The notes beneath the pieces are model-generated. The model saw only the letters and a program-made list of their open reading frames with translations. It was not told the DNA's origin and made no database searches. A DNA stretch of 29,208 nt from Botryococcus braunii. Lineage: Eukaryota; Chlorophyta; Trebouxiophyceae. The translations under genes and the position numbers were made by a program. The DNA is taken from positions 72,501-101,708 of the forward strand of contig MVGU01001472.1 of NCBI GenBank assembly GCA_002005505.1, read 5' to 3'. Numbering within the stretch: the first letter of the stretch is position 1; every line of letters begins with the position of its first letter. Below are positions 3,106-27,777 of this stretch, piece after piece.

Positions 3106-3164
<59 letters not shown>

Positions 3165-3932: not shown

Positions 3933-4008
<76 letters not shown>

Positions 4009-5953: not shown

Positions 5954-5959
5954 TGTGAT

Positions 5960-6208
5960 CTGCAAGATCCAAAGGTGTCAAAGATCAAATATAGATTATC
6001 AATATACGTACACGTATATCATCCAGATATTGCACCAGTTCGATCAGGCACACATACTCAATGGTGTCGAACTGGTGTACAATCAGATTAGACTGTTGCT
6101 TTCAGGGAATTGCTCACACACAGTGAGTAGAAGAGAAAGCAAGACAATAAGAGAACAGACGAGTCAAACAGGAGACGGCTTGAACAAGCCTTTAGAGAGC
6201 GAATGACT
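5960..6208 (-). repeat. X': intron-less copy of the LTR leader segment X
   Basis: 249 bp, identical by my reading to the three exon pieces of X (6251-6674), with both introns removed exactly. It ends CTTGCAG|ATCACA, which resembles a 3' splice site preceded by a T-rich tract. It begins AGTCATTCGC, the same first base as X, with TGTAA overlapping the boundary. Confidence 0.93.
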
Positions 6209-6314
6209 TACAACGTTGAACGAACGAACACACACACTATCTAATCTCACCTGCAAGATCCAAAGGTGTCAAAGATCAAATATAGATTATCAATATACGT
6301 ACACGTATATCATC

Positions 6315-6397
6315 CTGTCAACGCACTAACACCTTAAGTATCTTGCATGATTTCTACATTACTACTCTAATACCAAGACGTCACACTGCCGGCTTAC
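6315..6397 (-). other. Intron within the Copia-B LTR (exon B to exon C), 83 nt
   Basis: On the minus strand the sequence is CTG|GTAAGCC...TTGACAG|GATG, a canonical GT-AG intron. It is absent from X' at exactly this junction. In the 5' LTR the donor GT is mutated to CT (position 19546), so splicing there would be impaired. Confidence 0.92.
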
Positions 6398-6457
6398 CAG
6401 ATATTGCACCAGTTCGATCAGGCACACATACTCAATGGTGTCGAACTGGTGTACAAT

Positions 6458-6549
6458 CTGTAGAATTAACACACTTATGTTAGTAACTAGTCAATATTCA
6501 GCACTCATGGCTGTGAAAGAACTGAGGCCGTCATGACCCGGAGTCTTAC
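6458..6549 (-). other. Intron within the Copia-B LTR (exon A to exon B), 92 nt
   Basis: On the minus strand the sequence is CTG|GTAAGAC...TTCTACAG|ATTG, a canonical GT-AG intron precisely missing from X'. The donor is intact in the 5' LTR copy. Confidence 0.92.
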
Positions 6550-7033
6550 CAGATTAGACTGTTGCTTTCAGGGAATTGCTCACACACAGTGAGTAGAAGA
6601 GAAAGCAAGACAATAAGAGAACAGACGAGTCAAACAGGAGACGGCTTGAACAAGCCTTTAGAGAGCGAATGACTGCCTGTCCTTCCGGGTTCTAAGCCTA
6701 TCAATACTCAGATCAGCGCGTGAAGTTTGCGCTGTTCAGCAGTACTCCTGACCCTTTTCCTGAATTCCTGTCTCCCTAATGGTCCAGAACTTGAGGTTTT
6801 GGACCCTTATCCAAACAGTACTCTCATGCACGTTTTTATTAAAGGTAAATGCATGGTTTTTCAGCCACAAAAGGTAACAGTAGACGACAGCCATATAATG
6901 TTTATCCTTCTGATTGATTAGTCAGTGTCAAGGCATCCTCACCTTGAGTTAACTGTGAAGTTAACTCACAGCTATTTATCTAATCATAATTACCTCAAAT
7001 TAACATGACATAATGAAGCACAAAAACCCAACA

Positions 7034-7046
7034 ATCTTCCCCTTGG
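7034..7046 (-). other. Copia-B polypurine tract
   Basis: Minus-strand CCAAGGGGAAGAT directly precedes the 3' LTR TGTTGGG. It is the expected plus-strand primer site and lies 31 bp after the pol stop codon. Confidence 0.8.
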
Positions 7047-7076
7047 TTCATATGTCAGTTAATTTTACCCCATTGT

Positions 7077-8253
7077 TTAAGACACTCCAAGCTTAGCCCT
7101 ATGCTTCTCAAATAAGGCAGATGCTAAGGGCTTCGTAAACATATCTGCCACGTTTTCAGACGTAGCAATATAGACAGGTTCAATCTGCCCCCAAGCCACT
7201 TTTTCACGTGCATAGTGATAACTGATGCTTATATGCTTAGTGAATTTGGACACTATGTGATTTTTCAAGTGCTGAATTGCTCCTTGATTATCACAGAAAA
7301 GCTTGACAGTCTTCACTGTTACTCCAAGCTCTTCAAGCATACCTCCCATCCACATTACCTCCTTCACTGCTGCACTGGCAGCAACAAATTCAGCTTCCAC
7401 TGTGGATGTGGCAACTGATGACTGCTTCTTGCTGCACCAAGACACAGCTGACCCATTCAGTAGAAAAATAAACCCTGTGGTTGATTTTCGTCCATCGAGG
7501 TCCCCAGCAAAATCTGCATCAACATATCCCACCAACTCATTGTCTCCCGAGTTAGTATATGTGATGCCCATTTCTTTAGTGCAATTTAAGTACCTCAGTA
7601 CCCTTATTGCCCCATTCCAGTGTGCAATCGTAGGCTGCCCCCTGAAGCGACTCAGTATCCCCACTGCCTGAGCTATATCAGGCCTTGTTGTGGTAGCAAA
7701 GTATTGTAGCGATCCAATGAGCTCAAGGTACCTGTGACCTTCTGGCAGTGGCATGCCAGCTCCTACCTGCTCACCAGCCCTTCCTAGTGGTGGCTCAGGA
7801 TTCTGCGTAGAGACAAACCCATATGCCATTGGAGTATTGACTTCCTTCCCCTGTGCCGGCAGTCCATACTCCTCCACCAGTCTCTCAATTTTCAACACAT
7901 TGGTCATTTTGAGATTTCCAGTAGATTCATCCTTTCTAATTTCACATCCCAAAAATGCTTTTATCTCACCCAAATCATGGATTGAAAAGATGCTAGTGAG
8001 CTGTTGTTTCACACACTCAATAGTTTCACCTTCCTTACAAATAATTAACAGATCATCCACGTAAGTCAGCAGATAAACAGGTGACTCATAGGACTCCTTG
8101 TTAATGAACAAGGATGAATCGCTTTTGCAAGCCTTAAATCCAAACTTGTTCAGCTCTTCAACTAAACGCTTGTGCCAGGCACGTGGGGCCTGTTTCAAGC
8201 CATACAATGACTTCAGGAGTTTACATACCTTACTGGAATCACCATTGAAAAAG
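7077..8253 (-). CDS. Copia-B pol, C-terminal part (RT fingers/palm to RNase H)
   Basis: Second half of the Copia-B polyprotein, left of the Copia-A insertion. It starts in frame with [26 protein letters not shown] (RT), has the catalytic YVDD (LLTYVDDLLIICK) and conserved LGCEI and TRPDIAQAVG blocks. RNase H follows, with VDADFAGDLDGRKSTTG, STVEAEF and VKLFCDNQGAI, and it ends DMFTKPLA and a stop at 7077. There are no frameshifts or stops over about 390 codons. At the junction (8253) the reading frame matches the upstream part, so the only lesion in pol is the nested element. Confidence 0.93.
8249..8253. repeat. Copia-A target-site duplication, left (AAAAG)
   Basis: The 5 bp before the LTR start. 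The right-hand counterpart at 15490-15494 is GAAAG, so the duplication is either 4 bp (AAAG) or 5 bp with one change. Confidence 0.7.
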
Positions 8254-8486
8254 TGTTGAATGAATTGGTCAATACTGTACTTAGTGACATCCCCTGTCAC
8301 ATGCCATCAACAGCAGTGTAAACTATAGCCGTTATAGCCCTTTATGAACGGTATAGATCATACTCGTACCTCAATGACATAACACGTGACTTGTACGATA
8401 TGCGTTCTCAATAGACATTACGTATGGTAGTACTTTAGGATCCCTGCAGTCCGAGCCATCCCTGGGCAGCCCAGGAACGGCTCGGT

Positions 8487-8627
8487 ACTTGTCCGAAGCA
8501 TGTTGGTATCCTTGACCAACCTCTACTGTTGGAGAGTGCTGTGTGCTGTTCCTGGAAACGTTGTAGCGTGGACGGTTTTTCCCACAGGCTACGAAGTGAC
8601 GCTGCCGTCGTGCCATCACTGCAGGTG
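8487..8627 (+). repeat. Copia-A LTR segment X (first copy)
   Basis: 141 bp beginning ACTTGTCCGAAG and ending CACTGCAGGTG, repeated identically as X' at 8969-9109. Here CAG is followed by GTGTGT, a possible splice donor. Confidence 0.9.
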
Positions 8628-8968
8628 TGTTTAGGATTCTCAAAGCCGTTCCAGATATGATTGTGCTCAAACATTCAGACCAGTTAGATATTACTGCTGT
8701 GTGCATTGATGAGAGTGCATGACGAGAGCGCACTGAATGTTTGACCTCATTGAGACTTATGTTGACGTCCACCGTTGTGGCGGTAAGATAGTTTCACTGT
8801 ACAAACATCACAAAGAGACCTTGCTGAGTTACTGATGAACTATTATTGTATTCTAGTGACGTAAAGTAGACATCGCAAGGCCTCTTTGGTGCTGAACTCT
8901 GCTATCAGGCAAGGCGTAGTGTTACGTGGTCTTTAGCAAGAGTGAGAGCAGTTAAGATCATTTGTAAG

Positions 8969-9109
8969 ACTTGTCCGAAGCATGTTGGTATCCTTGACCA
9001 ACCTCTACTGTTGGAGAGTGCTGTGTGCTGTTCCTGGAAACGTTGTAGCGTGGACGGTTTTTCCCACAGGCTACGAAGTGACGCTGCCGTCGTGCCATCA
9101 CTGCAGGTG
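8969..9109 (+). repeat. Copia-A LTR segment X' (second copy)
   Basis: Identical to 8487-8627 by my reading and directly preceded by TTGTAAG. Its end CACTGCAG is a possible splice acceptor. Splicing from 8624 to 9106 would leave X joined to the last 26 bp of the LTR. Confidence 0.9.
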
Positions 9110-9132
9110 ACGCCGCAAGCAGAAATGCTTGA

Positions 9133-9148
9133 GGTTATGGGCCCACGC
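9133..9148 (+). other. Copia-A primer-binding site, half-tRNA-iMet type
   Basis: GGTTATGGGCCCACGC starts immediately after the LTR. Its first 14 nt are complementary to the anticodon arm of plant initiator tRNA-Met (contains GGGCCCAUAACC) rather than to the tRNA 3' end. Drosophila copia uses the same mode with a cleaved tRNA half. Confidence 0.85.
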
Positions 9149-9440
9149 TTTCCAAGCTGAGCTTGCAGTGACGCACGACAGATTTCCAGGGAGAAAAGGG
9201 GTTTCGGACCCCGCTTCGAGACTGCGAGCTTCACTGACGAGTGAGGTCTGGCCGTTCAAACATATCGAGCTAGTCACGTAAAATTATTCCTTCTGTAGTG
9301 CTGGAAGGAATTGTTGTACAGTAGCAACTGGGCTGGGAAAGCAGAAGTACTTCTGGGACTGATCAACTCAGTGTCAGAGCTAGGAAGAAGTGCTTCCAGG
9401 GGAAGTCATTTAAGGCTTGGAGTGAAGAACTGGCTTGATC

Positions 9441-12400
9441 ATGAAAACTAGAAGCAGACAAGTGATCATGAAAACGAGAAGTAAGCGCACTGCAACGGAG
9501 TCTGGATCAGCTGGGTCTGGCTCCTCCATCAGTGCATCACCCAGCCAGCCAGCAAACTCCACTGCGCAGAGTGGAGAGATGTGCATCGCAATGACGAAAA
9601 CCGGTGGCGTCGTCACCACGAATGTCAAATGTCCAGTGACTCTGGACAGAGAGGGAGTGGAATTTCCACTCTGGGATCTGGCATATGTGGCAGCCTGTGG
9701 CCTCAAAAGGTGCAAGGCAGCCATTGAAGCTCCAATGCCAGACACAGAGGAGAATGCAGCAGCGCTCCTAATGCTGATTGAGAGCGTCCCCAAGGCGTGG
9801 GGTGCCAAGCTGGCTGCAATGCAAGTGGCAGCCAATGCCTACCAGTGGGTTCGAGAGCGTTTTACTGGAGGGGCAGACCAGGAGGTAACAGCACGCTGGC
9901 TGGAGCTCCTACACACCAGCATGGGAGAGACAGAAACGTTGGAGGACTACTACAACAGGAAGGTGGCACTCTTCCATGCACTCAAGCGAAATGGGCACTC
10001 CATCATGGAGAGAGAAGCCAAGCTGGCAATCATCAAGGGCCTGCCAGAGGAAGCGAAGGAGACTGGGATGTTCTCCTCATCTGCTGGGAAGGATCTGGAG
10101 GGACTGTGGGAGATCATCTCCACCACAGCCAAGGGACTGGGCTTCAACGACCAGGTCCCCAGAGTCACCCCTGTGGCCAGGGCAGCCATCACACCAGCCT
10201 ACTCCACCACACCAGGGACTGCAAGCCCACAGGAGACCCAAGCTGGAGGCCAGGGGGGCCAAGCTTCATCGACCAAGGTGGAGGGACGGGACCGGCGTGA
10301 CAACAGGCGCTGCCGCTACTGCAACAAGCTAGGCCATTTTGAGAGGAACTGCCTCAAGAAGGAGGCGGACGAGAAGATGCAACAGAACCTGCAGCAAGTC
10401 ATGGCTGCAATGGCCAATCTGCTTCCGCAATTCCAAAATCAAGCGTCGGCTGCAGTGGCTCGACCTCCGGAGGGCAGCGGGAACGGCAACAACTTTTTCC
10501 CCGGGGGATATCCACCACCCTCTGGTATGTCTGCCATGATTTCTCTGAATGTCTTAACACCAACACGCGTCATGCCAGAAGCGAGAAGTTTTCTGGTGGA
10601 CAGTGGAGCCACCATCCACCTAGTCAATGATCTGTCCCTGCTACATTCCCCCACCCTGCACAGAAATCCCATTCCTTTGCATATGGCTACGTCAGATGCC
10701 ACGGGACAGATAATTGCAACTGGTTCCCTGTGCTTGAGCAGTGCAGAACAGCAACCCCTGTGGCTTCACAATGTGCATTGTGTTCCTTCAGCTACAGCTA
10801 ATCTGATTTCAGTGACAGCTGCTATACGTGATGGGGCTAGTTTTGTGACAGACAGTGTGGGAAGTTACACTGGTATGCGTGGCGCTCAAAACTGGTCTTG
10901 TTCAGTTGCACAGAGAAATGGCCTGTATTTCTTGCAGAAGGTCAGTCCAGTCAGAAACCCTGCCTCTGTGTTTGTTAACACAGCCAGAGCACCAGTCGCT
11001 CATGATTGCAGATTGAGAGCACTGTGGCACAGTAGACTGGGGCACCCAGGGGAGGTTAATATGAGGCGACTGCAGTCTGAAGATTTGGTCCTGGGCATCC
11101 CTGTATCTCTCTCCCCTTGCGCAAACTGTCACTCTTCGTGTGAAGCGTGCATTCAAGGAAAGCACAGTCGTCCCCCTTTTGGAACCAGTTCCAGAGCAGC
11201 CACTGAGCCCCTTGAGAGAATTCATTTGGACACAGTTGGCCCCATCTCCCCTACAGCTATTACTGGGGAGCGCTTCTTTGTCACGATTGTGGATGAGGCT
11301 ACGCACTACGTCATAGCCCTGGCAGTAAAAACCAAGGATGCAATCAGCAGTGCAGTCAGAGACCTCCTGATTTTTTGGCAGAGGCAGTTGAACCGCTCTG
11401 TTAAGTGCATTCGTACTGACAGGGGGACAGAATTCCTCAACAGTACATTGAAGGGTTTCTGTACGCAGGAGGGAATTAAATTTGAGACCTCTGCAGCATA
11501 CACGCCTCAGCAAAATGGCGTTGCTGAACGGATGAACCGAACAATCAAGGAGAAGGCCAGAACACTCATGTTGCATGCAGCTGCCAAACAGTCACTCTGG
11601 AAGGAAGCAGTGGAGACAGCCTGCATCCTGTACAATATGGGACCTGTGACTGGACGTGACAAGACGCCTTATGAAGCCTTCCATGGGGTAAAGCCCGATG
11701 TATCCCTGCTCAGGACTTTTGGCTGTCTAGCACATGTGCACATACCTGATCACCAAAGGGGAGTGTTTGAGTCTAAGACCTCCCCTGGTCTCTTCACAGG
11801 GTATTCCAGTGTGTCAAAGGCATATAGAATTTATATGGGAAACGGGATTTGGAAAGAAAGCAGAGATGTTACCTTTCTGGAGCACTTAAGGGGCGCAGAC
11901 AGAGTGGGGCTTAGCACCATGTCTCCTGTGAGTCCAAATGCAGTCCAGCAGCCCTTTGCCTTGCCTTTTGTACAACAGGAGGGCCAGCAGTCCTTGGGTC
12001 AGTTGTCTTTTTGGGACTCAGATGATCCTGAGCCTCTCTGCAACCGAGAGGTCAACGTGCAGCAGTCCGGACCTGACTCCCCCTGTGCAACCACCCCCTG
12101 TGCAACTACCCCATGTGCAATCAACCCCTGTGAGAATTCTGAGACTACAAGTGTCAACGTGGACGGGGAGCCCACTTCCTCGGAGCTGAGCCATACGCAG
12201 TCCGGCCACAGCTGGTCCGTACTCGGACACATGGAGAACCTGGCGCGAGGAGGCGAGGAGACCAAGTCACACATGCAACGTTTGAATAATGTGCAAGAAT
12301 GTGTTCGAATGGAAGTTGGGGCCATGGGTGTCCGAGGGCAAGACGGGCTGACCCGGCAGCAACGGTATGATCAGAGAGTAGCAGCACGTGAGACTGCAGC

Positions 12401-14585
12401 TGAGGTCACTGTGGAACATGATGGAGATGTGAGTGATGGAGAGAATAGGAGAATGTCAGAGGCCATTTGCCCAGGGGAAGCAACGGAAGCTCAGCCTAAT
12501 GGACAGGACTTGGCCAGGCTGGAGGGCATGTCTGATCATGTAAGCGCTGAGAGTGAGGCAAGAGAGGTCAGTTTGGAGATTTCCAATCAGACACTTGATG
12601 GACAAAGGGAGTCTTCAGATGGCCAGGCTCTGCGTGCTTGTGAGGGACACACTGGGGAGTCACAGGTGTGTTGTGAGAGTACAAGCGTGGATGAGAGAGA
12701 CACCACTGCAGGGTGTCGCACAGTGCCAGATTATGCTGCGCCTTTGAGTGATGAGTGCGTTTGGGACATGACGAGTGATGTAAGACCCAGATTGAGTGGA
12801 GCAGCATGTGAATCCTCCAAGGAGAGAAAGCTGCAGACACCTCCAGAGTGGGAGAGAGTCAGAGAGGTGTGTAACGCAGTAACCTCGAGCGAAAGAGTAG
12901 TGGAAGCACGTGCGTGTGAGCCTAGAGAGGATAGCCATGTTGTGCATGATCACAATCTGAATCCTGTAAAGGGTAAGATACCTGGGGTGAGGTGGTCCAA
13001 GGTGCCAATCCCTGGAAACCTCAGGGAGGCGCAAAGATCCCCTCAGTGGGAATTCTGGCGCCAGGCAATGCAAGAGGAGCAAGATTCTCTTGATGCGCAC
13101 GAGGTGATGGAGTACGTTGAGAGACCCAGGGGACACAAGGTGATCCCTGTGCATTGGATCTTCTCTGTGAAGACTGATGCACATGGGAACGTGTTGAGAT
13201 TTAAGGCTCGGCTTGTAGCCCAGGGCTGTAGACAGATTCCTGGAGTTGATGTAGATGAGGTCTTTGCACCTACCAGTAGCTATGGGTCCAGGAGGACTTT
13301 GCTAGCAACTGCTGCAGCAAAGAACATGGAAATTCACCAGGTGGATATAAAGACCGCCTTTTTGAATGGTGAATTAGAGGAGGAGGTGTATGTGACACAG
13401 CCTCCTGGATTTGATAATGGCAACCCCAACATTGTGTGCAGACTGCGTAAGGCCCTTTATGGCCTGAAGCAGGCTCCCAGGGCTTGGCACAAGACCCTGA
13501 ATGAGAAGCTGCTGAGTATGGGATATGAAGTGTGTAAGAGCGATGCGGGAGTTTACATAAAGAGACACGAGGATGGGGAGCTGTCATACATGCTTGTGTA
13601 TGTTGATGATCTTTTGATTGTGGCAATGGGTGCGGAAGAGATAGAATGGGTGAAAAAGGAGCTGTTGGCAAGCTTCAAGATTCATGACCTTGGTGAAGTC
13701 AAGGACTTCTTGGGCTGCCAGATCCTGAGAGATAGAGAGAATCGGTGCTTATCACTGAGCTGCGTGCCTAAGATTGATGCACTGTGTGAGAAGTTTGGGG
13801 TGAGTGCTGAGTCACGTACAGTCGATACTCCCATGAGTAAAGACTTTGTGATGTCTGGGATGCCGCAGGTTACAGTGGGTGAGACCAGCTTTGGGTCTGG
13901 GACTCCACTGCCTCCCGGGCATAGATATTGTGAGCTTGTTGGGTCTCTGTTGTATATTGCTAATACAACTCGACCTGATATAGCTCAGGCTGTGGGTGTT
14001 CTGTCCCGTTACCGGAACGCTCCCACCACTGCCCACATGAATGAGGGCTTGAGGGTATTGAGGTATCTTCAGTCTACTCGAGAGTGTGTCTTAGTGCTGG
14101 GAGGGAAAGGGCCTGTGTTAGAAGGTCATGTTGATGCAGATTATGCTGGCGATATTGACAGCAGGCATTCTACCTCGGGATATGTGCTATCAGTGTTTGG
14201 CAGTGCTGTGGTCTGGGGTAGTAAGAAGCAACACTCAGTTGCTACCTCCACTGTGGAGGCAGAATTCATGGCAACCAGTCTGGCTATTAAGGAGCTTAAC
14301 TGGCTGCGTGGGTTCATGGAGGAAATCGGAACTCCTCCTTGGTCAGTGAAGCTATACTGTGACAATCAGGGGTGCATTGCTAACCTGAAAAACCCACTGT
14401 ATAGCAAGTATACTAAGCACATTGCAGTGTGCTTCCACTTTGCACGTGAAGCTATTGCAAAGGGGCAGGTTACACTCTGCTATGTGGAGTCTGCAAGGAA
14501 CAAGGCAGACATGCTGACAAAGCCTCTCGCTCGCCCTGCCTTCCAGACGCACAGGCGAGGGTTTGGACTTGTGAAGATGACATAG
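9441..14585 (+). CDS. Copia-A Gag-Pol polyprotein (1714 aa)
   Basis: A single open frame. The first ATG is at 9441; a second at 9468 follows a short duplicated MKTRS segment. Domains by approximate residue: gag (1-270), zinc knuckle CRYCNKLGHFERNC (about 290), aspartic protease VDSGATIHLV (about 386), GAG-pre-integrase zinc region HSRLGHPG...CX2CX3CX2C (about 530-575), and integrase core with HLDTVG, RTDRGTEF and a glutamate in QQNGVAERMNR (about 597, 657, 697). A long acidic linker with PCATT repeats follows (about 830-1190). Then come RT with [21 protein letters not shown] and YVDDLL (about 1300-1390), and RNase H with DADYAG, STVEAEF and YCDNQG (about 1563-1690). All catalytic residues are present. 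Gag and Pol must be produced from the same frame by proteolysis; no frameshift or stop separates them. Confidence 0.97.
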   Translation: MKTRSRQVIMKTRSKRTATESGSAGSGSSISASPSQPANSTAQSGEMCIAMTKTGGVVTTNVKCPVTLDREGVEFPLWDLAYVAACGLKRCKAAIEAPMPDTEENAAALLMLIESVPKAWGAKLAAMQVAANAYQWVRERFTGGADQEVTARWLELLHTSMGETETLEDYYNRKVALFHALKRNGHSIMEREAKLAIIKGLPEEAKETGMFSSSAGKDLEGLWEIISTTAKGLGFNDQVPRVTPVARAAITPAYSTTPGTASPQETQAGGQGGQASSTKVEGRDRRDNRRCRYCNKLGHFERNCLKKEADEKMQQNLQQVMAAMANLLPQFQNQASAAVARPPEGSGNGNNFFPGGYPPPSGMSAMISLNVLTPTRVMPEARSFLVDSGATIHLVNDLSLLHSPTLHRNPIPLHMATSDATGQIIATGSLCLSSAEQQPLWLHNVHCVPSATANLISVTAAIRDGASFVTDSVGSYTGMRGAQNWSCSVAQRNGLYFLQKVSPVRNPASVFVNTARAPVAHDCRLRALWHSRLGHPGEVNMRRLQSEDLVLGIPVSLSPCANCHSSCEACIQGKHSRPPFGTSSRAATEPLERIHLDTVGPISPTAITGERFFVTIVDEATHYVIALAVKTKDAISSAVRDLLIFWQRQLNRSVKCIRTDRGTEFLNSTLKGFCTQEGIKFETSAAYTPQQNGVAERMNRTIKEKARTLMLHAAAKQSLWKEAVETACILYNMGPVTGRDKTPYEAFHGVKPDVSLLRTFGCLAHVHIPDHQRGVFESKTSPGLFTGYSSVSKAYRIYMGNGIWKESRDVTFLEHLRGADRVGLSTMSPVSPNAVQQPFALPFVQQEGQQSLGQLSFWDSDDPEPLCNREVNVQQSGPDSPCATTPCATTPCAINPCENSETTSVNVDGEPTSSELSHTQSGHSWSVLGHMENLARGGEETKSHMQRLNNVQECVRMEVGAMGVRGQDGLTRQQRYDQRVAARETAAEVTVEHDGDVSDGENRRMSEAICPGEATEAQPNGQDLARLEGMSDHVSAESEAREVSLEISNQTLDGQRESSDGQALRACEGHTGESQVCCESTSVDERDTTAGCRTVPDYAAPLSDECVWDMTSDVRPRLSGAACESSKERKLQTPPEWERVREVCNAVTSSERVVEARACEPREDSHVVHDHNLNPVKGKIPGVRWSKVPIPGNLREAQRSPQWEFWRQAMQEEQDSLDAHEVMEYVERPRGHKVIPVHWIFSVKTDAHGNVLRFKARLVAQGCRQIPGVDVDEVFAPTSSYGSRRTLLATAAAKNMEIHQVDIKTAFLNGELEEEVYVTQPPGFDNGNPNIVCRLRKALYGLKQAPRAWHKTLNEKLLSMGYEVCKSDAGVYIKRHEDGELSYMLVYVDDLLIVAMGAEEIEWVKKELLASFKIHDLGEVKDFLGCQILRDRENRCLSLSCVPKIDALCEKFGVSAESRTVDTPMSKDFVMSGMPQVTVGETSFGSGTPLPPGHRYCELVGSLLYIANTTRPDIAQAVGVLSRYRNAPTTAHMNEGLRVLRYLQSTRECVLVLGGKGPVLEGHVDADYAGDIDSRHSTSGYVLSVFGSAVVWGSKKQHSVATSTVEAEFMATSLAIKELNWLRGFMEEIGTPPWSVKLYCDNQGCIANLKNPLYSKYTKHIAVCFHFAREAIAKGQVTLCYVESARNKADMLTKPLARPAFQTHRRGFGLVKMT

Positions 14586-14600
14586 GTGACAGGGTGCTGT

Positions 14601-14610
14601 CAAGGGGAAG
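14601..14610 (+). other. Copia-A polypurine tract
   Basis: CAAGGGGAAG lies immediately before the 3' LTR TGTTGAATG and 16 bp after the Gag-Pol stop. The same tract precedes the Copia-D LTR. Confidence 0.85.
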
Positions 14611-15489
14611 TGTTGAATGAATTGGTCAATACTGTACTTAGTGACATCCCCTGTCACATGCCATCAACAGCAGTGTAAACTATAGCCGTTATAGCCCTTT
14701 ATGAACGGTATAGATCATACTCGTACCTCAATGACATAACACGTGACTTGTACGATATGCGTTCTCAATAGACATTACGTATGGTAGTACTTTAGGATCC
14801 CTGCAGTCCGAGCCATCCCTGGGCAGCCCAGGAACGGCTCGGTACTTGTCCGAAGCATGTTGGTATCCTTGACCAACCTCTACTGTTGGAGAGTGCTGTG
14901 TGCTGTTCCTGGAAACGTTGTAGCGTGGACGGTTTTTCCCACAGGCTACGAAGTGACGCTGCCGTCGTGCCATCACTGCAGGTGTGTTTAGGATTCTCAA
15001 AGCCGTTCCAGATATGATTGTGCTCAAACATTCAGACCAGTTAGATATTACTGCTGTGTGCATTGATGAGAGTGCATGACGAGAGCGCACTGAATGTTTG
15101 ACCTCATTGAGACTTATGTTGACGTCCACCGTTGTGGCGGTAAGATAGTTTCACTGTACAAACATCACAAAGAGACCTTGCTGAGTTACTGATGAACTAT
15201 TATTGTATTCTAGTGACGTAAAGTAGACATCGCAAGGCCTCTTTGGTGCTGAACTCTGCTATCAGGCAAGGCGTAGTGTTACGTGGTCTTTAGCAAGAGT
15301 GAGAGCAGTTAAGATCATTTGTAAGACTTGTCCGAAGCATGTTGGTATCCTTGACCAACCTCTACTGTTGGAGAGTGCTGTGTGCTGTTCCTGGAAACGT
15401 TGTAGCGTGGACGGTTTTTCCCACAGGCTACGAAGTGACGCTGCCGTCGTGCCATCACTGCAGGTGACGCCGCAAGCAGAAATGCTTGA
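14611..15489 (+). repeat. Copia-A 3' LTR (879 bp)
   Basis: Identical to the 5' LTR by my reading, including X (14844-14984) and X' (15326-15466). It is followed by GAAAG, the target duplication, and then Copia-B pol. Confidence 0.95.
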
Positions 15490-17863
15490 GAAAGCAAGGA
15501 GGCTGAGAAACATAAACTTCCTCTTCTAGTGATCCATTCAGAAAGGCAGTTTTAATATCTACCTGATGCACCTTCCATCCATTTGCGTTTGCCAAATTTA
15601 GAAGCACACGCCTGGAGGAGTGAGTGCTAACTGGAGCAAACGTCTCAAAATAGTCCACTCCTGGCCGTTGCTTGCATCCTTGAGCAACAAGTCTAGCCTT
15701 GAACCTGACTACATCCCCAAAACCATCAGTTTTAATAGCATAAACCCACTTCAGTGGGATCACCTTTGCATGTGATGGCTTGTCACAATACTCGAAGGTT
15801 TCATGCGCTTCGATGGAGTCCATTTCCTCGTTGATGGCCTCCAGCCAGTATACCCATTGGGGTGAATTCCTGGCTTCAAACCAATCGTTAGGAATCCTCA
15901 CATCTCTAGATGCAATGTTGACTTTCTCTCTTGCTCCATTCTGCATGGGTGGTGTAACCTCTGTTGCGCCTAGTAATGGATTGTCCTTTACATGATAAGC
16001 GCCTGGAACATACTTATCTGGTTGAGCAAGTGTCTCTCTTAGATCATACCGACTTGTTCCACCCCTCACCCTTTCCTGCACATCATCATCATTGTCAGAC
16101 TCATGTGATGAGTTATCGTTATCCGACTCTGAGCATGGATTATTCACACCCTCCTCTGGAGGTTCCTGTCCAGTCCCAAGGCCCATTAACTCTTCCCCTG
16201 AGATGGCTGAGCCATGTGTCTCTCTGATCCCACTCTCTTCCGCCTGAGCCTGTTCCCTCAGAACTTCGTTCAGTCTCTGCATAACTTCTAGGTTAGCTGG
16301 AAGGATTTGATCTACTCCCCTTCCAGCTTCCCTGTTCATCTCCAAGGCGTCGGCAATGTCAACCGGGACAAAATCCCAGTCATCCTCATCTGCAGCGCTT
16401 GGCACCTGATCACAAGTTACTTCACGTGGGAAGTCAGAGGGCAATTGGGTTTCAGTAGAGAGAGTGTGAATTCCCAATTTATCTTCGAAAAACTTAACAT
16501 TTTTCGATACCTTGACCTTACTGCCAACCCTTATCCTGTATGCCTTAGATGCTGGTTCATAACCCACGAACATACCAGCCTCTGACCTAGGGGAGAAGGC
16601 AGACAAGTCTTTGTCTGGAATTTTGATGTACGCCAGACAGCCAAAGACCCTCAAATAATGCACAGAAGGTTTCCTGCCGAACAGTAGCTCATAAGGGGTG
16701 GAAGACTTCCCCTTAGTAGCTCTAAGATTAAGTAGCCTGACAGCAGTAGGCAGTGCGTCGGTCCACATACTTTGTGGGGCCTTAGCTTGTAGCAGCAACA
16801 TTCTAACCTTCTCCTTTAAGGATCTGTTAAAACGCTCTGCCCTACCATTTTGTTGAGGTGTGTAGGGTGCAGACGTTTCATGTCTGATGCCCTTTGACTG
16901 AAAAAACTCGTGTAAATCTGAGTTAACAAATTCAGTCCCCCTGTCAGTCCTAACCACCTTTACAGAGTGACCAGTTTGATTTTCTAAATATAGTAGGATT
17001 GCTTTAACAGCATCGCCCACCTGAGACTTGTAGCATAGAGCCCTTGCTTCACCAGCCTTAGAAAAATCATCCAGCACAGTGAGCATATACCTCTCCCCTT
17101 CTGCCCCCGGTACAGGAAGCTCACCAACAATATCCATATGGACAAGCTGTAGGCGCTCTGTAGCCGTTGCAGGGGAACGCTGGTAGCTTTCTCTAGTCTG
17201 CTTACCCAAAACACACACCTCGCATAGTGAGTGACCATGTGAGCAAGGAGATAAAGAGGTTTCAATCCCTTTAACCATATTTTCTGTCTGCAGTCGTTCC
17301 ATATTTTTACTTCCAGGATGTCCTAACCTTGCATGCCAGAGATCATACTCGGAGCACTTGTGTGCAAGACCAGCAGTGTGAGGGGGCTTCATTGACTGAC
17401 ATGATGTTGAACAAAAATACAACCCTCTCTCCTTTGTAACTTCCATTGTGAAGGATGATTTCAGACAGCAGACATTTGTGACTTCACCTACTGAAATAGT
17501 TGAAAAACTAAGACCGTCGACGACTCCAGCAGATACTGACATTAAATTTTCCAACGCAGTCGGAACAAATTCAACATCCCTCAACATACATGTGTTGCCC
17601 TGCTGATCAACCAAGCATACGATTCCAGATGCTTTGCGTTGCGCCACATGTTCACCAGTGGCCAGATTTAGACCCTTTGGAACTGGATACCAATGTACAT
17701 TATTCATTAATCTCACATCATTGCAGATATGTGTGGAAGCTCCAGAATCTACTACCCATAGTGAGGACAATTTACCTGAATCTGAGGAGTCAATCATGGC
17801 CATTCCTCCAACAGGATTTTGAGATCGCCCTTGCCAGCCATGATTGCAGCTCTCCTGGCACAA
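15490..17863 (-). CDS. Copia-B pol, N-terminal part (protease, integrase, start of RT)
   Basis: The open frame begins near 17863 and overlaps the end of gag in the -1 frame. It carries protease VVDSGASTHICND, the GAG-pre-integrase zinc region (WHARLGHPG...CSHGHSLCEVC), integrase with HMDIVGELP, RTDRGTEF and TPQQNGRAERFNR, an acidic linker, and the start of RT (KWVYAIKTDGFGD, VDIKTAFLNG, EEEVYVSQPP). The element sequence stops at 15490 where Copia-A inserted; the open frame runs 35 bp further into the LTR before a chance stop. It resumes at 8253. No internal stop or frameshift is seen, so it was intact until the insertion. Confidence 0.92.
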
Positions 17864-19393: not shown

Positions 19394-20181
19394 TGTGATC
19401 TGCAAGATCCAAAGGTGTCAAAGATCAAATATAGATTATCAATATACGTACACGTATATCATCCTGTCAACGCACTAACACCTTTAGTATCTTGCATGAT
19501 TTCTACATTACTACTCTAATACCAAGACGTCACACTGCCGGCTTAGCAGATATTGCACCAGTTCAATCAGGCACACATACTCAATGGTGTCGAACTGGTG
19601 TACAATCTGTAGAATTAACACACTTATGTTAGTAACTAGTAAATATTCAGCACTCATGGCTGTGAACGAACTGAGGCCGTCATGACCCGGAGTCTTACCA
19701 GATTAGACTGTTGCTTTCAGGGAATTGCTCACACACAGTGAGTAGAAGAGAAAGCAAGACAATAAGAGAACAGACGAGTCAAACAGGAGACGGCTTGAAC
19801 AAGCCTTTAGAGAGCGAATGACTGCCTGTCCTTCCGGGTTCTAAGCCTATCAATACTCAGATCAGCGCGTGAAGGTTGCGCTATTCAGCAGTACTCCTGA
19901 CCCTTTTCCTGAATTCCTGTCTCCCTAATGGTCCAGAACTTGAGGTTTTGGACCCTTATCCTAACAGTACTCTCATGCACGTTTTTATTAAAGGTAAATG
20001 CATGGTTTTTCAGCCACAAAAGGTAACAGTAGACGACAGCCATATAATGTTTATCCTTCTGATTGATTAGCCAGTGTCAAGGCATCCTCACCTTGAGTTA
20101 ACTGTGAAGTTAACTCACAGCTATTTATCTAATCATAATTACCTCAAATTAACATGACATAATGAAGCACAAAACCCAACA
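19394..20181 (-). repeat. Copia-B 5' LTR, short form (788 bp)
   Basis: Starts TGTTGGGT (20181) and ends ATCACA (19394). It contains U3 and X with both introns (X = 19823-19400), then goes straight to ATCACA, with no linker and no X'. Differences from the 3' LTR include loss of one splice donor (19546) and a 1-bp deletion near the start. It is the form expected from recombination between X and X', or from an RNA that lost only the third intron. Confidence 0.9.
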
Positions 20182-20894
20182 CTTGCAGACACTATACCCC
20201 ATGACACTCAACTTGTCATTCAGGGTCTTATGCCATGCCCTAGGGGCTTGTTTAAGACCATATAGTGCCTTCCTAAGTTTACACACTACTCTCGTATTGC
20301 CATTCTCAAAACCTGGCTGAGTCACAAATACTTCCTCCTCCAATTTCCCATTAAGAAAGGCAGTCTTGATATCCACTTGGTGGATCTCAAGATTCTGTGT
20401 GGCAGCTACTGCCAGTACAGCCCTCCTTGCCCCTTAGCTGCGAGTGGGTGCAAATACCTCCCCAACATCTATCCCAGGGATCTGTCTACACCCCTGGGCA
20501 ACCAATCTCGCTTTAAAGCGAGTAACATTCCCATGTGCATCATTTTTAGTGGAGAAGATCCAATGGACAGGAATATCTTTCTGTCCATGTGGCATGTCCA
20601 CATATTCTAGAACCTCATGGGTATCAAGGGAATCCATCTCTTCCCTCATTGCTTGTTGCCAAAAATCCCACTGCGGGGAGCATTGGGCTTCCCTCAGGTT
20701 AGATGGCACGTGAACCTTTCCCAGCTTGACATAAGGTACATTCTGTACCTTATGCTGAGACTCTACAGTACTGTCAACACTCCTGGGACTGTTGTCTTTA
20801 ATATCCCTCTGATCTTGGTTCCCAAAATAAGGTACATTTTGTACCTTATGTTGAGATCCGGCAGTACAGCCAGAACTGCCAGAGCCCTCCCCAA

Positions 20895-20926
<32 letters not shown>

Positions 20927-21259
20927 CTGCCAGACTCATGCGCTCCACCATTACAATCTCTCACCTTTCTCAATGCAGGTGGAAGCAGCAGCCCTCTCTC
21001 TCTCCTGGACTCACACCTAGGTACACTACTCTGACTTTCCTAAGCTGCGCCTATCGTGTTAGACTGCACCCCATAAGCATGATTGGCTCCCAGCTCAAAT
21101 TGGCTACATGCTTCCCCTGCTGCTGGCACTTCTAGCCACTACTCTCCTCGCTAACATCTTCTCCAAGCATAGCCTCCCCTGTCTCAACCTGCCTGTGCAA
21201 ATCAGGGAGACCTACCAAGGGTGGCTCACTCACAAGTACCTGGCCTGAGCCAGGGTCAT
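20182..21259 (-). pseudogene. Copia-F: truncated copia pol fragment (linker and RT N-terminal part)
   Basis: Minus-strand reading from the right: a degenerate acidic linker, a poly-RE stretch from a (TC)n microsatellite (about 20896-20931), two copies of SQHKVQNVPY, then RT (VHWIFSTKNDAHGN, RFKARLVAQGCRQIPG). After a frameshift near 20435 it continues [12 protein letters not shown] and [13 protein letters not shown], ending at VCK where the Copia-B LTR starts. The fragment belongs to the same family as Copia-D (near-identical RT). It is cut on the left by Copia-B and on the right by the Copia-C 5' LTR. Confidence 0.88.
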
Positions 21260-21957
21260 TGTTGAGTTCTAAACATTATTACTGAATGCCTTGTGCTTTA
21301 AGTGATCTTCAGGTGTGTACTATTAGGATATGGGTCCATTGAGAACATAAGGTACCTTAAGACACGTTAGGTTGTGGACGATTTCGAACATAAGGTACAA
21401 TCTAATCTAGATTACGCATTAGTGTGAAAGGACTCTTAAAGCTGCAATCACCGCATAGTCGAGCAACTGGTTTGGAAAGATACTGGGCACATAAGGATGC
21501 CAGTCTTGTTCATGCAGTTGCATGTGTCTAAAGAGCAGACAGTCGTCGAGGACTGTAACTGGAGAGACACGAACTTACGGCCTGTCTGCTTGCTTACAGG
21601 TGCGGTGACGCAGGGTGTGTATTGGTAATGTGTTCATGTTTGATTGCTTGTTTGTAAGTGAACCATCTTAGTGTACAATCAAGTCTCCAAACAGCTAAGG
21701 GACGGAGTCTTGATTGAGTATAGGAGGTACTTGCTTTCAGCCGTCAGGAGCTTATCCGTGTGTAGATGCTCATTGACGGATCAACGTGTAACGGAACTGG
21801 TTTGGAAAGATACTGGGCACATAAGGATGCCAGTCTTGTTCATGCAGTTGCATGTGTCTAAAGAGCAGACAGTCGTCGAGGACTGTAGCTGGAGAGGCAC
21901 GAACTTACGACCTGTCTGCTTGCTTACAGGATACGCCACTGGCCATAACCTTTTAAA
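21260..21957 (+). repeat. Copia-C 5' LTR (698 bp)
   Basis: Starts TGTTGAGTT and ends CCTTTTAAA before the PBS. X is at 21465-21600, a 194-bp spacer ends GTGTAACGG, and X' is at 21795-21930. A TATA-like CTTAAA lies about 28 bp before X. X is followed by CAG|GTGCGG; X' ends in a textbook acceptor context, TGCTTGCTTACAG|G. The U3 contains two ATAAGGTAC motifs. Confidence 0.9.
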
Positions 21958-21973
21958 GGTTATGGGCCCACGC
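21958..21973 (+). other. Copia-C primer-binding site, half-tRNA-iMet type
   Basis: GGTTATGGGCCCACGC is identical to the Copia-A site. The LTR end just before it (GGCCATAACCTTT) is its reverse complement but for one C, so U5 end and PBS can form a hairpin of about 13 bp. Confidence 0.85.
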
Positions 21974-22456
21974 CCTTCCAACTGAGCCAAGGGCAGACAT
22001 GAGTGCATGGCATCATGGGGATGCATCTGTACTAGGTTTGCCACGGACTCGCCTGACGGCAAGAAGAAGTAAAAAGGAACAACTGGATATTCACTCAGAA
22101 GGCCTACCTACAGAGTCTTCAATCTCTTGGGAAGTTTTTTTTTCCGTGAAGTGACCTGAGATTATCACCCGTCGTCGATATCGTGAGACCGTCAGTATGT
22201 CCGGGTGGTCAGGCAATTGAATTGCTGAAGAATATTTTGCATATCTTGCATATTAAGGTTACATGCTAGACCTCGAAAGGGTGGAATACTTGAAAGTGCT
22301 GTGGTGTACGCCGGAAGGGTATGCTTAAATCAGCTGTGTCAGGCTGAACGCTGTGAGAGGAAGTGAAGTGTATGACCAGACCTCAAACTCGTTCTTAAAT
22401 CAGCTGTGTCAGGACAGACCACTGGAGGCACTGCAGCCAGCTCGTATGCATACACG
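21974..22456 (+). other. Copia-C leader
   Basis: Non-coding stretch between PBS and gag. It contains a 20-bp direct repeat, CTTAAATCAGCTGTGTCAGG, at 22324-22343 and 22394-22413, and a 5-codon upstream reading frame (ATG at 22446) just before the gag ATG. No other feature was seen. Confidence 0.6.
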
Positions 22457-23829: not shown

Positions 23830-24029
23830 TGTAACAGGGAAAATCACACAATGGCACGGAGACCAAGAAATAGCAATAATAGTCTGTAAAACAGACGGCA
23901 TCCACCTCATGCTCTATCTTCTCTTGTGTCTTCTTCTCGTTCTTATGCTCGCGACATTAGGGCACATTCGAGACACCTACAACGCGTACACGCGCTACCA
24001 AACCGCTAGGGACCAAAACACCTATTACA
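23830..24029 (-). repeat. Gyp-E 3' LTR (200 bp)
   Basis: Nearly identical to 25701-25904, with small indels (for example GTAAAACAG versus GTTACAAACAG). It is bounded by TG...CA and the GCCAT duplication. Confidence 0.92.
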
Positions 24030-25149
24030 TCCTCCCCCCCTTATTGTGAGCGTCCTCGCTCACCGAGCAAATGAGACACGGATAGAACAGACGGGCCAAG
24101 CCCAAACTTGGGCATCCGCCACTCCCGTCAGACCCCGGCCTTCTGCCGTCTATGCGGGTCCCCACCATATAACAACAATACAGACAAACAAGGCAGGCAC
24201 ACATGCAAGCAAGTCCCGTCAAGTCCAAGTCCAAGTCCAGCTTACACAAACAACTCCATGACATGACAAGCATAAAATATCTTAACCGGTTCAATCAAGC
24301 ATTAATTATCCTCCTGGATGGATCCATTGTCACTGCTGGGGCACATTCATCTCATCCACCAGGCATGCACAGACTAGGGGCGACTCCCTCGTTGGCCCAG
24401 CCCCCTTCCATTCGTCTTCGGGAGTCTTAACTCCTGGAGAACCCCTCTTCGGCGACTCCGTTGGCACACACAGAGCCTTCCCCAGTGACTAAGGGATGCC
24501 AGAGGGCCCACCCGACCTGCCAAGCCCCTCCCGTAAGGACTTGTGGTTTAACCCCAGGAGCCCCGCTAGCCCCCTTAGAACATCGACTACGCATGCGTAA
24601 CTAGTGTTAAGCTTGTTTGGTACCCACTGAACAAAACCACAAGGGTCACGAGTAGCAGGGGCCCCTACTCCCAGTGCATCGTAAAGCCTGACACGGAGAG
24701 AAACTCCCCGGGTACCTGCTGAAGGAGAACTGAATGACGAGCACGCAGAACCCCTCCTGCACCGCAGTGCAGTTGGCATTTTAGCAGGCACCTGTGAGGG
24801 GGCAAAACACCCTTTGTCAGTATGGCTAGACTCCGCCCCTGCGTACTTGCTCAGCGAAGTAAGGGTTAAGAAAAAGTATGAGAGAGAGAGACTCCTCTAG
24901 TCTAGGGATAAAACTAACTCTGTCCTCGTCGATGCTTCAGGCCTGTAAATCCTACGGGACGTGCCAAGGCCTACCGTTTGACACGGGTCCGGCCTCCCCA
25001 TGCACAGGTCAGCATGCAGCAATCACAAGCAAGGCAACCGTGAGCTCCCATTCGCTCAGACCATGCTGACAAGTGCATGAATCAACACAGAGCAATATCA
25101 AAACAAATACTTACCATATTACCAACGCTTCTTCTTGAGGCCAGTCTGA
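24030..25149 (-). other. Gyp-E internal non-coding region
   Basis: About 1.1 kb between the gag remnant and the 3' LTR. The polypurine tract AATAAGGGGGGGAGGA (minus strand) lies next to the LTR. A short (AAGTCC)n tandem sits at about 24216-24239. No enzyme domain or conserved frame was recognised. Confidence 0.6.
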
Positions 25150-25579
25150 TCAAAGTAATCTTTGAGGGGCAGACACTCTGCTTATGCCCAAAGCCAGTAC
25201 ACTTATACAACGCAGCACATAAGGTAGCTCTGTGTCTGCTCGGCGCTTGAAGTTTACCGCTGCAACTGCCAAATCTGACACATCGACGACGGGAGGCGAC
25301 ACGACAAGCGTCTCTGCATTTTTCTTGTCTGCAATGTGCTGTGTCTTCACTTCAGCTGATACCCCTGCGTCATACCGAGCTGTATACTGAAGAAGAGCTG
25401 CCAAAGTCTGGAAAGTCTTCTCCTGTGGCCGGTTAAGGGTGACTGCACTCTTCAGGTAGGGGGCCAGCCCCTTTTTGAAGAGGTGGACCTGGTCTTGAGC
25501 CGAGATAGTGTACTCCGTCGAAAACATCCCCTACCAAAGACATGAAGTCTTGCGTGTACTCCTCAAGGGTACCCGCCAT
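25125..25579 (-). pseudogene. Gyp-E gag remnant (Ty3/gypsy type, frameshifted)
   Basis: ATG at 25579 reads MAGTLEEYTQDFMSLVGDV. A frameshift near 25525 then leads to STEYTISAQDQVHLFKKGL and on through QKTF-like gag helices (frame 25527-25150). This EYTQ...F..L...GL..LK..V arrangement is typical of Ty3/gypsy capsid, not copia. A second shift near 25200 reveals KCTGFGHKQSVC (minus, about 25195-25160), which has the last three ligands of a CCHC knuckle. Not translatable as one protein. Confidence 0.75.
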
Positions 25580-25700
25580 TGACGCAAAAATCTAGGCTTA
25601 ATGCCGTTTGCAGTTTGCGTGCATGAATCAGCGGGGGTGCCCCAGTGGTCAAGGTCGAGTACAGTCCGACGATCGGCAACCAATCGCCGATACCAGAAAG

Positions 25701-25904
25701 TGTAACAGGGAAAATCACACAATGGCACGGAGACCAAGAAATAGCAATAATAGTCTGTTACAAACAGACGGCATCCACCTCATGCTCTATCTTCTCTTGT
25801 GTCTTCTTCTCGTTCCTTATGCTCGCGACATTAGGGGCACATTCGAGACACCTGCAACGCGTACACGCGCTACCAAACCGCTAGGGACCAAAACACCTAT
25901 TACG
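25701..25904 (-). repeat. Gyp-E 5' LTR (204 bp)
   Basis: Begins TGTAACAGGG on plus and ends CTATTACG next to the GCCAT duplication. On the minus strand it is followed after 5 bp by TGGTATCGGCG, a tRNA-3'-end type PBS distinct from the half-tRNA sites of the copia elements. Confidence 0.92.
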
Positions 25905-25909
25905 GCCAT

Positions 25910-27077
25910 TCAGGATGGAGCATCATTCCTCACTGAGAGTGCAGGTGGGTACACGACCATGAAAGGCCCAGCATGCTGGTATGGTCAGATAGCCAGAGAG
26001 CGAGGGCTGTTTTTTTTAGAATGGGTGTGTCCAGTCAAGAGCCAGCATGCTGCGCAGCCACAGTCCAGTCCTCATGTTGCCTGGTATCATGCCAGGAAAG
26101 GGCACGTGTGTACAGATAGACTAATGTGGCATGCAAGGTTGGGTCATTTTGGGGTTAAGAGTATGACAAGGTTGGACAACGAAGATCTGGTAACTGGGAT
26201 CAATGTGTCCCTTGCTCCATGCTCAGAGTGTCCTCCCCAATGTGAGTCATGTATACAAGGGAAACACTCTCGCCCCCCCTTTCCAGCTTCCTCTAGGCCT
26301 GCAGAGAGTGTGTTAGATAGAGTGCATGTGGACACTGTGGGGGCCATTTCACCAGCTGTCATCACGGGAGAGCGTTTTTGGGTTACCGTGGTTGATGAAA
26401 AATCCCCTCTGATAGCCTCATTGGCAGTGAAGTCGAAAGAAGCCATTCCCAAGGCCCTCATTGAGCTCTTGAAGTACGGGCAGACATTTCATGAGAAAGT
26501 GGTGAAGTGTGTGAGATCTGATAGAGGGACAGAATTTCTGAATCATCTGCTCAAAGAATTTTGTGCTCAGCAGGGCACTAAAATGGAGACCTCAGCTCCA
26601 TCCACGCCTCAGCAAAATGGACTTGCTGAGCGCATGAATCGGACTCTGAAGGAGCGCACAAGGACCCTGTTGGTGCACGCTGCAGCAGACCCTTCCTTGT
26701 GGAAGGAGGCACTGGAGTCTGCCACCCTGCTTTACAACGTGGGCCCCACCACAGGCAGGCCTCTGACCCTACTGAGATGTTCTATGGGGTAAAGCCTGAT
26801 GTTGCTTCCTTGCGCACATGGGGCTGTGTGGCACATGTTCACATTCCCCAGGTCAGCGGTCTGTATTTGGACCAAAGACCATTCCAGGCATGTTCACTAG
26901 GTATTGCCCACAGTCTAAGGCCTATAGAGTGTACGTAGGCAATGGTGTATGGAAAGAGAGCAGGGACGTTACATTCCTTGAGAATTTGAGAGGGGGGAGA
27001 GAGTGGGTATGTCTAAGGTGCAACCTGGATCCCCAATGGCTCTCAGGAGCGTCCTCGCATGGCAGTGGAGGCAATTC
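25910..27077 (+). pseudogene. Copia-C integrase region, frameshifted
   Basis: Continues the Copia-C frame after Gyp-E (IQDGASFLTESAGG). It includes the zinc region WHARLGHFG...CPPQCESC and the integrase core with VDTVGAIS, RSDRGTEF and QQNGLAERMNR. Frameshifts near 26765 and 26860 split the C-terminal part, readable as FYGVKPDVASLRTWGC and then SKAYRVYVGNGVWKES in other frames. It ends abruptly at 27077 at the Copia-D LTR. By comparison with Copia-A, about half of pol is missing from the window. Confidence 0.88.
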
Positions 27078-27777
27078 TGTAAAAGGTTATGGGCAATGGC
27101 GTATCCTGTAAGCAAGCAGACAGGTCGTAAGTTCGTGCCTCTTCAGCTACAGTCCTTGACGACTGTCTGCTCTTTAGACACATGCAACTGCATGAACAAG
27201 ACTGGCATCCTTATGTGCCCAGTATCTTTCCAAACCAGTTCCGTTACATGTTGATCTGTCAATGAGCATCTACACACGGATAAGCTCCTGACGGCGGAAA
27301 GCAAGTACCTTCCTATACCCAATCAAGACTCCGTCCTTAGCTGTTTGGGAGACTTGATTGTCCACTAAGATGGTTCACTTACAAACAAGCAATCAAACAT
27401 GAACACATTACCAATACACACCCTGCGTCACCGCACCTGTAAGCAAGCAGACAGGTCGTAAGTTCGTGCCTCTTCAGCTACAGTCCTTGACGAATGTCTG
27501 CTCTTTAGACACATGCAACTGCATGAGCAAGACTGGCATCCTTATGTGCCCAGTATCTTTCCAAACCAGTTGCTCGACTATGCGGTGATCGCAGCTTTAA
27601 TAGTCCTTTCACACTAACGCGAAATCTAAATCAGATTGTACCTTATGTTCGAAATAGACCTCATCCGAACGTGTCTTGAGGTACCTTATGTGGATAGTGG
27701 ACCCGTATCCTAATAATGTACATTTGAAGATCACCTAAAGCACAAGGCATTCTATAATGTATGTTCACAACTCAACA
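27078..27777 (-). repeat. Copia-D 3' LTR (700 bp)
   Basis: Starts TGTTGAGTT and ends CCTTTTACA in element sense. X is at 27571-27436 and X' at 27240-27105, with TGTAACGG right before X'. Clear homologue of the Copia-C LTR. The U5 end again carries GCCCATAACC, the sense sequence of the tRNA-iMet anticodon arm. Confidence 0.9.

Follow-up and report, generated by a model that had tools for sequence, protein, structure and literature searches.

How does a retrotransposon with a polyadenylation (poly(A)) signal in both of its long terminal repeats (LTRs) read through the signal in the 5' copy and use the one in the 3' copy, and why do most of the LTRs at this locus hold the same segment twice? These questions are raised by a 29,208-nucleotide (nt) stretch of the Botryococcus braunii genome (contig MVGU01001472.1, positions 72,501 to 101,708), hereafter the window, which holds LTRs of four copia elements, Copia-A to Copia-D (A to D). 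In these LTRs a segment, X, is followed after a spacer by a second copy, X'. The best explanation overall, to which we give a probability of about 0.85 from the sequence data, is that splicing drops the 5' poly(A) signal and that the spliced strong-stop complementary DNA (cDNA) renews X'.

One plan, consisting of X, CAG/GT, a spacer ending in TGTAA, and X' ending in CAG, was found in the LTRs of A, C and D and in the 3' LTR of B. In A, X and X' were 100% identical over 141 nt in both LTRs (8487-8627 and 8969-9109; 14844-14984 and 15326-15466). The identity was 97.8% in C (21465-21600 and 21795-21930) and 98.5% in D (minus strand, 27571-27436 and 27240-27105), and in the 3' LTR of B (minus strand, 6674-6251 and 6208-5960) the two copies matched in blocks of 125, 62 and 65 nt, each at 100%. 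In A, B and C, CAG closes X and X' at the ends given in Table 1. Both the repeats and the coordinates confirmed the plan put forward in an earlier, sequence-only reading of this DNA, and the splice-type ends and TGTAA were located where it had placed them.

A point missing from that reading is that X of the B 3' LTR contains two introns, both lacking in X'. X consists of three exons (125, 60 and 64 nt) split by two GT-AG introns (92 and 83 nt), and X' consists of the three exons exactly joined. A third donor, CAG/GTGAGA, follows X, and its acceptor, CTTGCAG/ATCACA, closes X'. Because X' lacks exactly the two GT-AG introns of X, it looks like cDNA of spliced X.

The LTRs were surveyed in the host assembly (176 Mb), which also gave 35 matches to PF00504 (light-harvesting complex type, exon pieces). 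The primer-binding site (PBS) GGTTATGGGCCCACGC occurred 923 times genome-wide and its reversed control not once. The first sample, taken from the first 100 PBS places listed, comprised 80 regions with 81 places (two near contig ends and the last 17 were left out). X/X' pairs were present in 75 of the 81 LTR ends beside this common PBS; as scored by a script, 74 of the 75 had GT/AG and 74 had TGTAA at the start of X'. The script misses were L077, where an extra partial copy was taken and the printed X retains its donor, and L026. The six ends without X/X' were L029, L033, L044 and L084, which have a single X joined to U5 (the unique 5' region), L063, which is mostly N, and L086, which contains a nested insertion by eye; L086 as a hybrid LTR was ruled out, as it proved by eye to be a B2-like LTR nested in a C-like LTR. 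The second sample, of PBSs preceded by T or C (45 places), consisted of 20 regions and 22 rows, mostly B2, in which two places appear twice. In 18 of these 22 rows a repeat ended by the PBS, with GT/AG in 17 and TGTAA in 15 of the 18.

Ten LTR types were distinguished (A, B, C, C0, C2, B2, L022, L066, L088 and L102), which form three groups by the start of X (ACTTG, AGTCA and AACTG/AACTA). The L102 type (G000:C228:240090-242140) is nested in a B2 LTR, and its X starts with ACTTGTTTGGG, followed by CAG/GTAACG and by TTGTAAT at X'. Chance or simple tandem duplication as the origin of the X/X' pairs was ruled out by the survey together with the intron-free X'.

The comparison of introns was extended to 25 B2/B3 rows, 17 of which gave three clean blocks and eight of which did not. 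In all 17 rows, representing 16 distinct LTRs (L107 and L108 overlap), both introns of X were GT-AG and missing from X', which shows that X' is intron-free where X has introns. The identity of X' to its own spliced X was 0.93-1.00, compared with means of 0.68-0.92 to the X of other LTRs, and the own spliced X was the best match of X' in 13 of the 16 LTRs and tied for best in one more. With an intron-free query, among the matches listed, at least 35 rows matched U3 (the unique 3' region) plus exon 1 only, at least 34 were contiguous from exon 1 to U5, with two more nearly so, and at least six matched the whole query. Removal of the GT...AG segments yields a contiguous product that is found elsewhere, as is expected of spliceosomal introns.

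Two LTRs showed variations of this arrangement. In L098 (G000:C162:272670-274730), exon 2, intron 2 and exon 3 are duplicated within X and X' is the plain three-exon product, as though the extra exon had been skipped or the duplication had come later. In X' of L111 (G000:C809:11080-11950), exons 2 and 3 are separated by an insert of about 22 nt, which opens with the reverse complement of the end of exon 2 and resembles a snap-back error of cDNA synthesis.

X and X' were also found to change together. At a site that separates subfamilies of A (X position 110), X/X' were C/C in nine LTRs, G/G in eight and G/C in one. In C0, two of 39 LTRs (L043 and L083) carry a 41-nt deletion in X and X' alike, and C and D of the window differ at two sites, at each of which the own X and X' agree (by eye). 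These sites show X' tracking X. L013 (X = G) was considered as a lagging allele that would prove the direction from X to X' and was rejected, as its partner L115 has T and the change therefore came after insertion. L080 (X = G, X' = C) was not accepted as proof of direction either, since no partner was found within the stretch fetched.

The base directly before X' was G in 29, T in seven, C in two and A in one of the 39 C0 LTRs, which makes it the most variable site of the LTR; with the host flank set aside, every other listed site had at most three deviants. A 31-nt pattern spanning this junction gave 852 matches genome-wide within one mismatch, of which 812 were exact with only the junction base free, and the remaining 30 positions together accounted for 40. 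The base was not G in 26 of the first 100 matches listed. Among these 100, matches on the same strand and 6.15-6.36 kb apart were taken as presumed LTR pairs, and the junction base was equal in 34 of 34 such pairs (25 GG, seven TT, one CC and one AA, thus nine non-G), a concordance reached in 0 of 100000 shuffles. The junction base in C0 was therefore fixed before integration. The C0 junction is the site where the 3' end of the strong-stop cDNA would land, and extra bases at the cDNA end, perhaps a cap-derived G, would explain its variation. Hypervariability of the junction as a general rule was ruled out; it was found in C0 only.

Spliced cDNA landing on X rather than on X' would yield an LTR of the form U3-spliced X-U5. 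At least six such LTRs were found among the matches listed, all full-length matches to a query made from one of them: presumed pairs on C322 and C35 and singles on C521 and C1. L091 and L106 were inspected as sequence, and L097 is a further, diverged LTR of this form (by eye). In the C group, a single X joined to U5 was found in L118, the partner of L029, as well as in the four LTRs named above. The occurrence of single-X forms in both LTRs of an element points to reverse transcription over later recombination. Landing on X would also remove the poly(A) signal, so that such copies would be poor parents.

These lines of evidence strongly support the rewriting of X' from spliced strong-stop cDNA. 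In agreement with the sequence-only reading, X/X' pairs occur in most of the LTR ends sampled, and the renewal of X' by spliced strong-stop cDNA is supported by the intron-free X' beside an intron-bearing X, the concordance of X and X' alleles, the C0 junction base and the LTRs with a single spliced X in presumed pairs.

Both its position and published work on chlorophytes support TGTAA as a putative poly(A) signal, with cleavage shortly after the start of X'. TGTAA starts 4-8 nt before X' in ten of ten LTR types (three related groups). In one study, UGUAA in chlorophytes peaks near -17 from the cleavage site (PMC1868727), which would place the RNA end about 9-13 nt inside X'.

Under the proposed mechanism, the LTR would be laid out as U3-X-(GT spacer TGTAA X' AG)-U5, and the transcript of the 5' LTR would begin with the first A of X. 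The spliceosome would connect the end of X in this leader with the AG that ends X' and so delete the TGTAA, a signal that, if retained, would terminate the RNA immediately; in the B group, the two further introns inside X would also be spliced out. In the 3' LTR, cleavage would fall within X', a few nt downstream of TGTAA, and the RNA would end without having reached the acceptor, so that this intron could not be spliced there and would escape loss. Reverse transcription primed by a half-tRNA-Met would copy U5 and spliced X into the strong-stop cDNA, whose 3' end would transfer onto the start of X', which forms the 3' terminus of the RNA. Transfer through R (the terminal repeat) would need equal RNA ends, and the starts of X and X' agree in sequence. 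In each new LTR, U3, X and the spacer would derive from the 3' LTR, and X'-U5 would be supplied anew by the spliced 5' leader. Quite probably, judging from these LTRs, the elements represent a class of LTR retrotransposons with spliced RNA as the replicating genome, in which an LTR intron with the poly(A) signal and half of R is removed in every cycle and, as the RNA stops short of the acceptor, is rebuilt each time the first strand transfers.

Several observations weigh against this reading. The own X was not the best match of X' in two of the 16 LTRs (L017 and L107). X and X' disagreed in one of 18 LTRs of A, at L013 and one gap in C0, and in C2 in single copies at five sites, with two copies at one of them; the listing included only sites with at least two deviating copies. 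Because the X-only change of L013 came after insertion, the direction from X to X' rests on the introns. The junction base was not hypervariable in other families (G in 17 and C in one of 18 A LTRs; G in all readable C2 rows), and further TGTAA copies, seven in all, lie elsewhere in six of the ten LTR types. L051 and C261:164426-165998 carry an extra X-spacer unit (three copies) in one LTR, and these may be later DNA changes because the partner LTR is normal (L117 for L051); such LTRs were dropped as proof of an unspliced strong-stop. L077 as a product of alternative splicing is a lead only, with a splice-like junction at one place and no partner in the 1.9 kb fetched. The model does not account for the persistence of introns 1 and 2 within X of the 3' LTR. 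Finally, we infer the start site, splicing in vivo, the cleavage site and the end-to-end transfer from the sequence.

It is possible, though unlikely, that renewal by cDNA is right and that TGTAA is not a working signal, in which case the RNA would end deeper in or beyond X' and the spacer would survive through inefficient splicing in the 3' LTR. The additional TGTAA copies and the inferred position of the RNA 3' end leave room for such a course, and single X-U5 LTRs could also stem from RNAs spliced in the 3' LTR; what speaks against it is the placement of TGTAA 4-8 nt before X' in all ten types, which, with the published UGUAA peak cited above, would put cleavage about 9-13 nt inside X'. A variant of the best explanation, to which we give a similarly small chance, is intermolecular transfer, in which a separate spliced RNA would serve as the cDNA donor and a less spliced RNA as the acceptor. 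It would account for the loss of introns 1 and 2 at one end and their retention at the other, and the sequence data are compatible with one molecule or two; however, an RNA whose 5' leader had not been spliced would run into the TGTAA of the 5' LTR, and the genomic RNA itself would therefore be expected to be spliced there. It is very improbable that X' originated in a single event, through tandem duplication or retro-insertion, and that ordinary gene conversion at the DNA level or unequal recombination within LTRs has since kept it the same as X. The three-copy LTRs show that tandem-unit changes limited to one LTR occur, and X-X' recombination could in principle give single-X LTRs. Conversion, however, would transfer introns 1 and 2 to X' or remove them from X, neither of which was seen in the 16 LTRs measured; the C0 junction base was preset before integration, and single-X forms are present in both LTRs of an element.

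Table 1. Positions in the window of the copia LTRs and of their parts.
Feature	Position	Strand	Remarks
Copia-A 5' LTR	8254..9132	+	identical to 14611-15489; PBS starts 9133
A X	8487..8624	+	putative RNA 5' leader exon; start is the putative transcription start site
A putative LTR intron	8625..9106	+	CAG/GTGTGT ... CTGCAG; contains TGTAA 8963-8967 and X'
A X'	8969..9106	+	putatively copied from X as cDNA; in the 3' LTR, its first bases would form the RNA 3' end
A PBS	9133..9148	+	GGTTATGGGCCCACGC; 14 nt complementary to the anticodon arm of the genome's tRNA-Met
A gag-pol open reading frame (ORF)	9435..14585	+	1716 aa; copia order gag_pre-integrs, rve, SH3_retrovirus, RVT_2
Copia-A 3' LTR	14611..15489	+	X 14844-14981; TGTAA 15320-15324; X' 15326-15463
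Copia-B 3' LTR	5954..7033	-	
B X	6251..6674	-	exon 1 6674-6550; exon 2 6457-6398; exon 3 6314-6251
B intron 1 of X	6458..6549	-	GTAAGACTCC...TTCTACAG; missing from X'
B intron 2 of X	6315..6397	-	GTAAGCCGG...GTTGACAG; missing from X'
B putative intron 3	5960..6250	-	GTGAGATT ... CTTGCAG; with TGTAA 6212-6208 and intron-free X' 6208-5960
Copia-B 5' LTR	19394..20181	-	aberrant: X runs into U5, without spacer and X'
Copia-C 5' LTR	21260..21957	+	X 21465-21599; donor 21600; TGTAA 21787-21791; X' 21795-21929; PBS from 21958
Copia-D 3' LTR	27078..27777	-	X 27571-27437; donor 27436; X' 27240-27106

The A element (8254-15489, plus strand) has two LTRs that are 100% identical, and the direct repeats that bound its body (8251-9133 and 14608-15490) are likewise 100% identical. 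A interrupts B at the RVT_2 domain, and B in turn seems to be nested in another copia pol, with 20189-20700 matching A. The window B 5' LTR and L113 kept introns 1 and 2 and have X joined directly to U5, which fits premature transfer within exon 3 or DNA recombination. In the former, the intron 2 donor is altered to CTAAG and the PBS is also altered; the B LTRs are 1.3% divergent from each other and no target duplication is clear, and taken together B looks like a mosaic. Elsewhere in the window, a 200-nt direct repeat of 97.5% identity (23830-24028 and 25701-25903, 1.9 kb apart) lies between the C and D LTRs, and long low-complexity tracts (1158-1385, 3039-3212 and 3877-4040) lie to the left of the elements.

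The order of domains in the A ORF (gag_pre-integrs 528-576, rve 589-690 and RVT_2 1222-1467, E 2.6e-64), with integrase before reverse transcriptase (RT), is that of Ty1/copia elements. The LTRs of all four window elements start with TGTTG, and those of B and D end in CA, that of A in GA and that of C in AA. AAGTC flanks both sides of the L029/L118 element as a candidate target-site duplication (by eye); none was found for B of the window, and that of A was not clean. The PBS and the anticodon arm of tRNA-Met share GTGGGCCCATAACC; two of the three places were called tRNA-Met by ARAGORN, and the initiator identity was assigned by eye. Past the 14-nt core, the PBS region (window 9133-9160 and 21958-21985; L011 and others) in the C group also resembles the D arm of tRNA-Met, GCTCAGC.GGAAG, as an extended primer match (by eye). 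In the C group, L066 and L102, the last bases of U5 are CCATAACC, which is complementary to part of the PBS that comes next (window 21930-21975; L011, L010, L066 and L102), and the leader could therefore fold the PBS into a hairpin.

Named RT relatives included those of Haematococcus, Tetradesmus, Closterium and land plants, with a small number from elsewhere, for example from an oomycete; no relatives were confirmed in viral_contigs. One protein (P0001) with an RT 100% identical to that of A comes from a 6312-nt contig. As a length of about 6370 nt is predicted for the spliced A transcript, this contig is possibly an assembled transcript.

Introns do not normally survive the reverse transcription of spliced RNA; this LTR layout appears to build splicing into the cycle and to protect the intron. 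If this is true, an intron is not lost by retrotransposition, a single LTR contains the leader in its spliced and its unspliced form next to each other, and the elements have a new answer to the 5' read-through and 3' use of a poly(A) signal present in both LTRs. The X/X' LTRs would be a natural record of RNA start sites and splicing, and the endpoint of first-strand transfer would be testable from genome sequence alone, as the junction base appears to record it. A literature search, limited to open-licence papers, found no account of this LTR layout, and to our knowledge such a mechanism is known nowhere else.

Drosophila copia is a Ty1/copia element with internal half-tRNA-iMet priming, and the elements described here are of a similar type in having integrase before RT in a single ORF, TGTTG at the LTR start, and a PBS complementary to the anticodon arm of tRNA-Met. 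The copia LTRs known to us have one R and no LTR intron rewritten each cycle; unlike them, these LTRs carry a putative intron inside, which would be rewritten in each cycle. In HIV-1 and foamy virus, the poly(A) site of the 5' LTR is suppressed by U1 at the major splice donor. There a splice donor solves, as it would in these elements, the problem of a poly(A) signal in both LTRs; however, the 5' signal of these viruses stays in the RNA and is only repressed, whereas that of these elements would be removed by splicing and regained when the strand transfers.

Penelope-like elements belong to a different RT class, which is not known to have a tRNA-primed strong-stop. They are retroelements reported to mobilise intron-containing genes (PMC3846280), and they keep introns whole, whereas here spliced and unspliced copies adjoin in one LTR. 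The copia element BARE1 of barley produces a spliced RNA with CAG/GTAT...CAG/GA junctions, its intron lying at the end of gag and giving a Gag-only RNA, and the authors of the BARE1 paper state that retrotransposons must avoid reverse transcription of spliced RNA (PMC3735527). The likeness is that of a copia element with splicing, and the difference is that the spliced RNA here seems to be the template.

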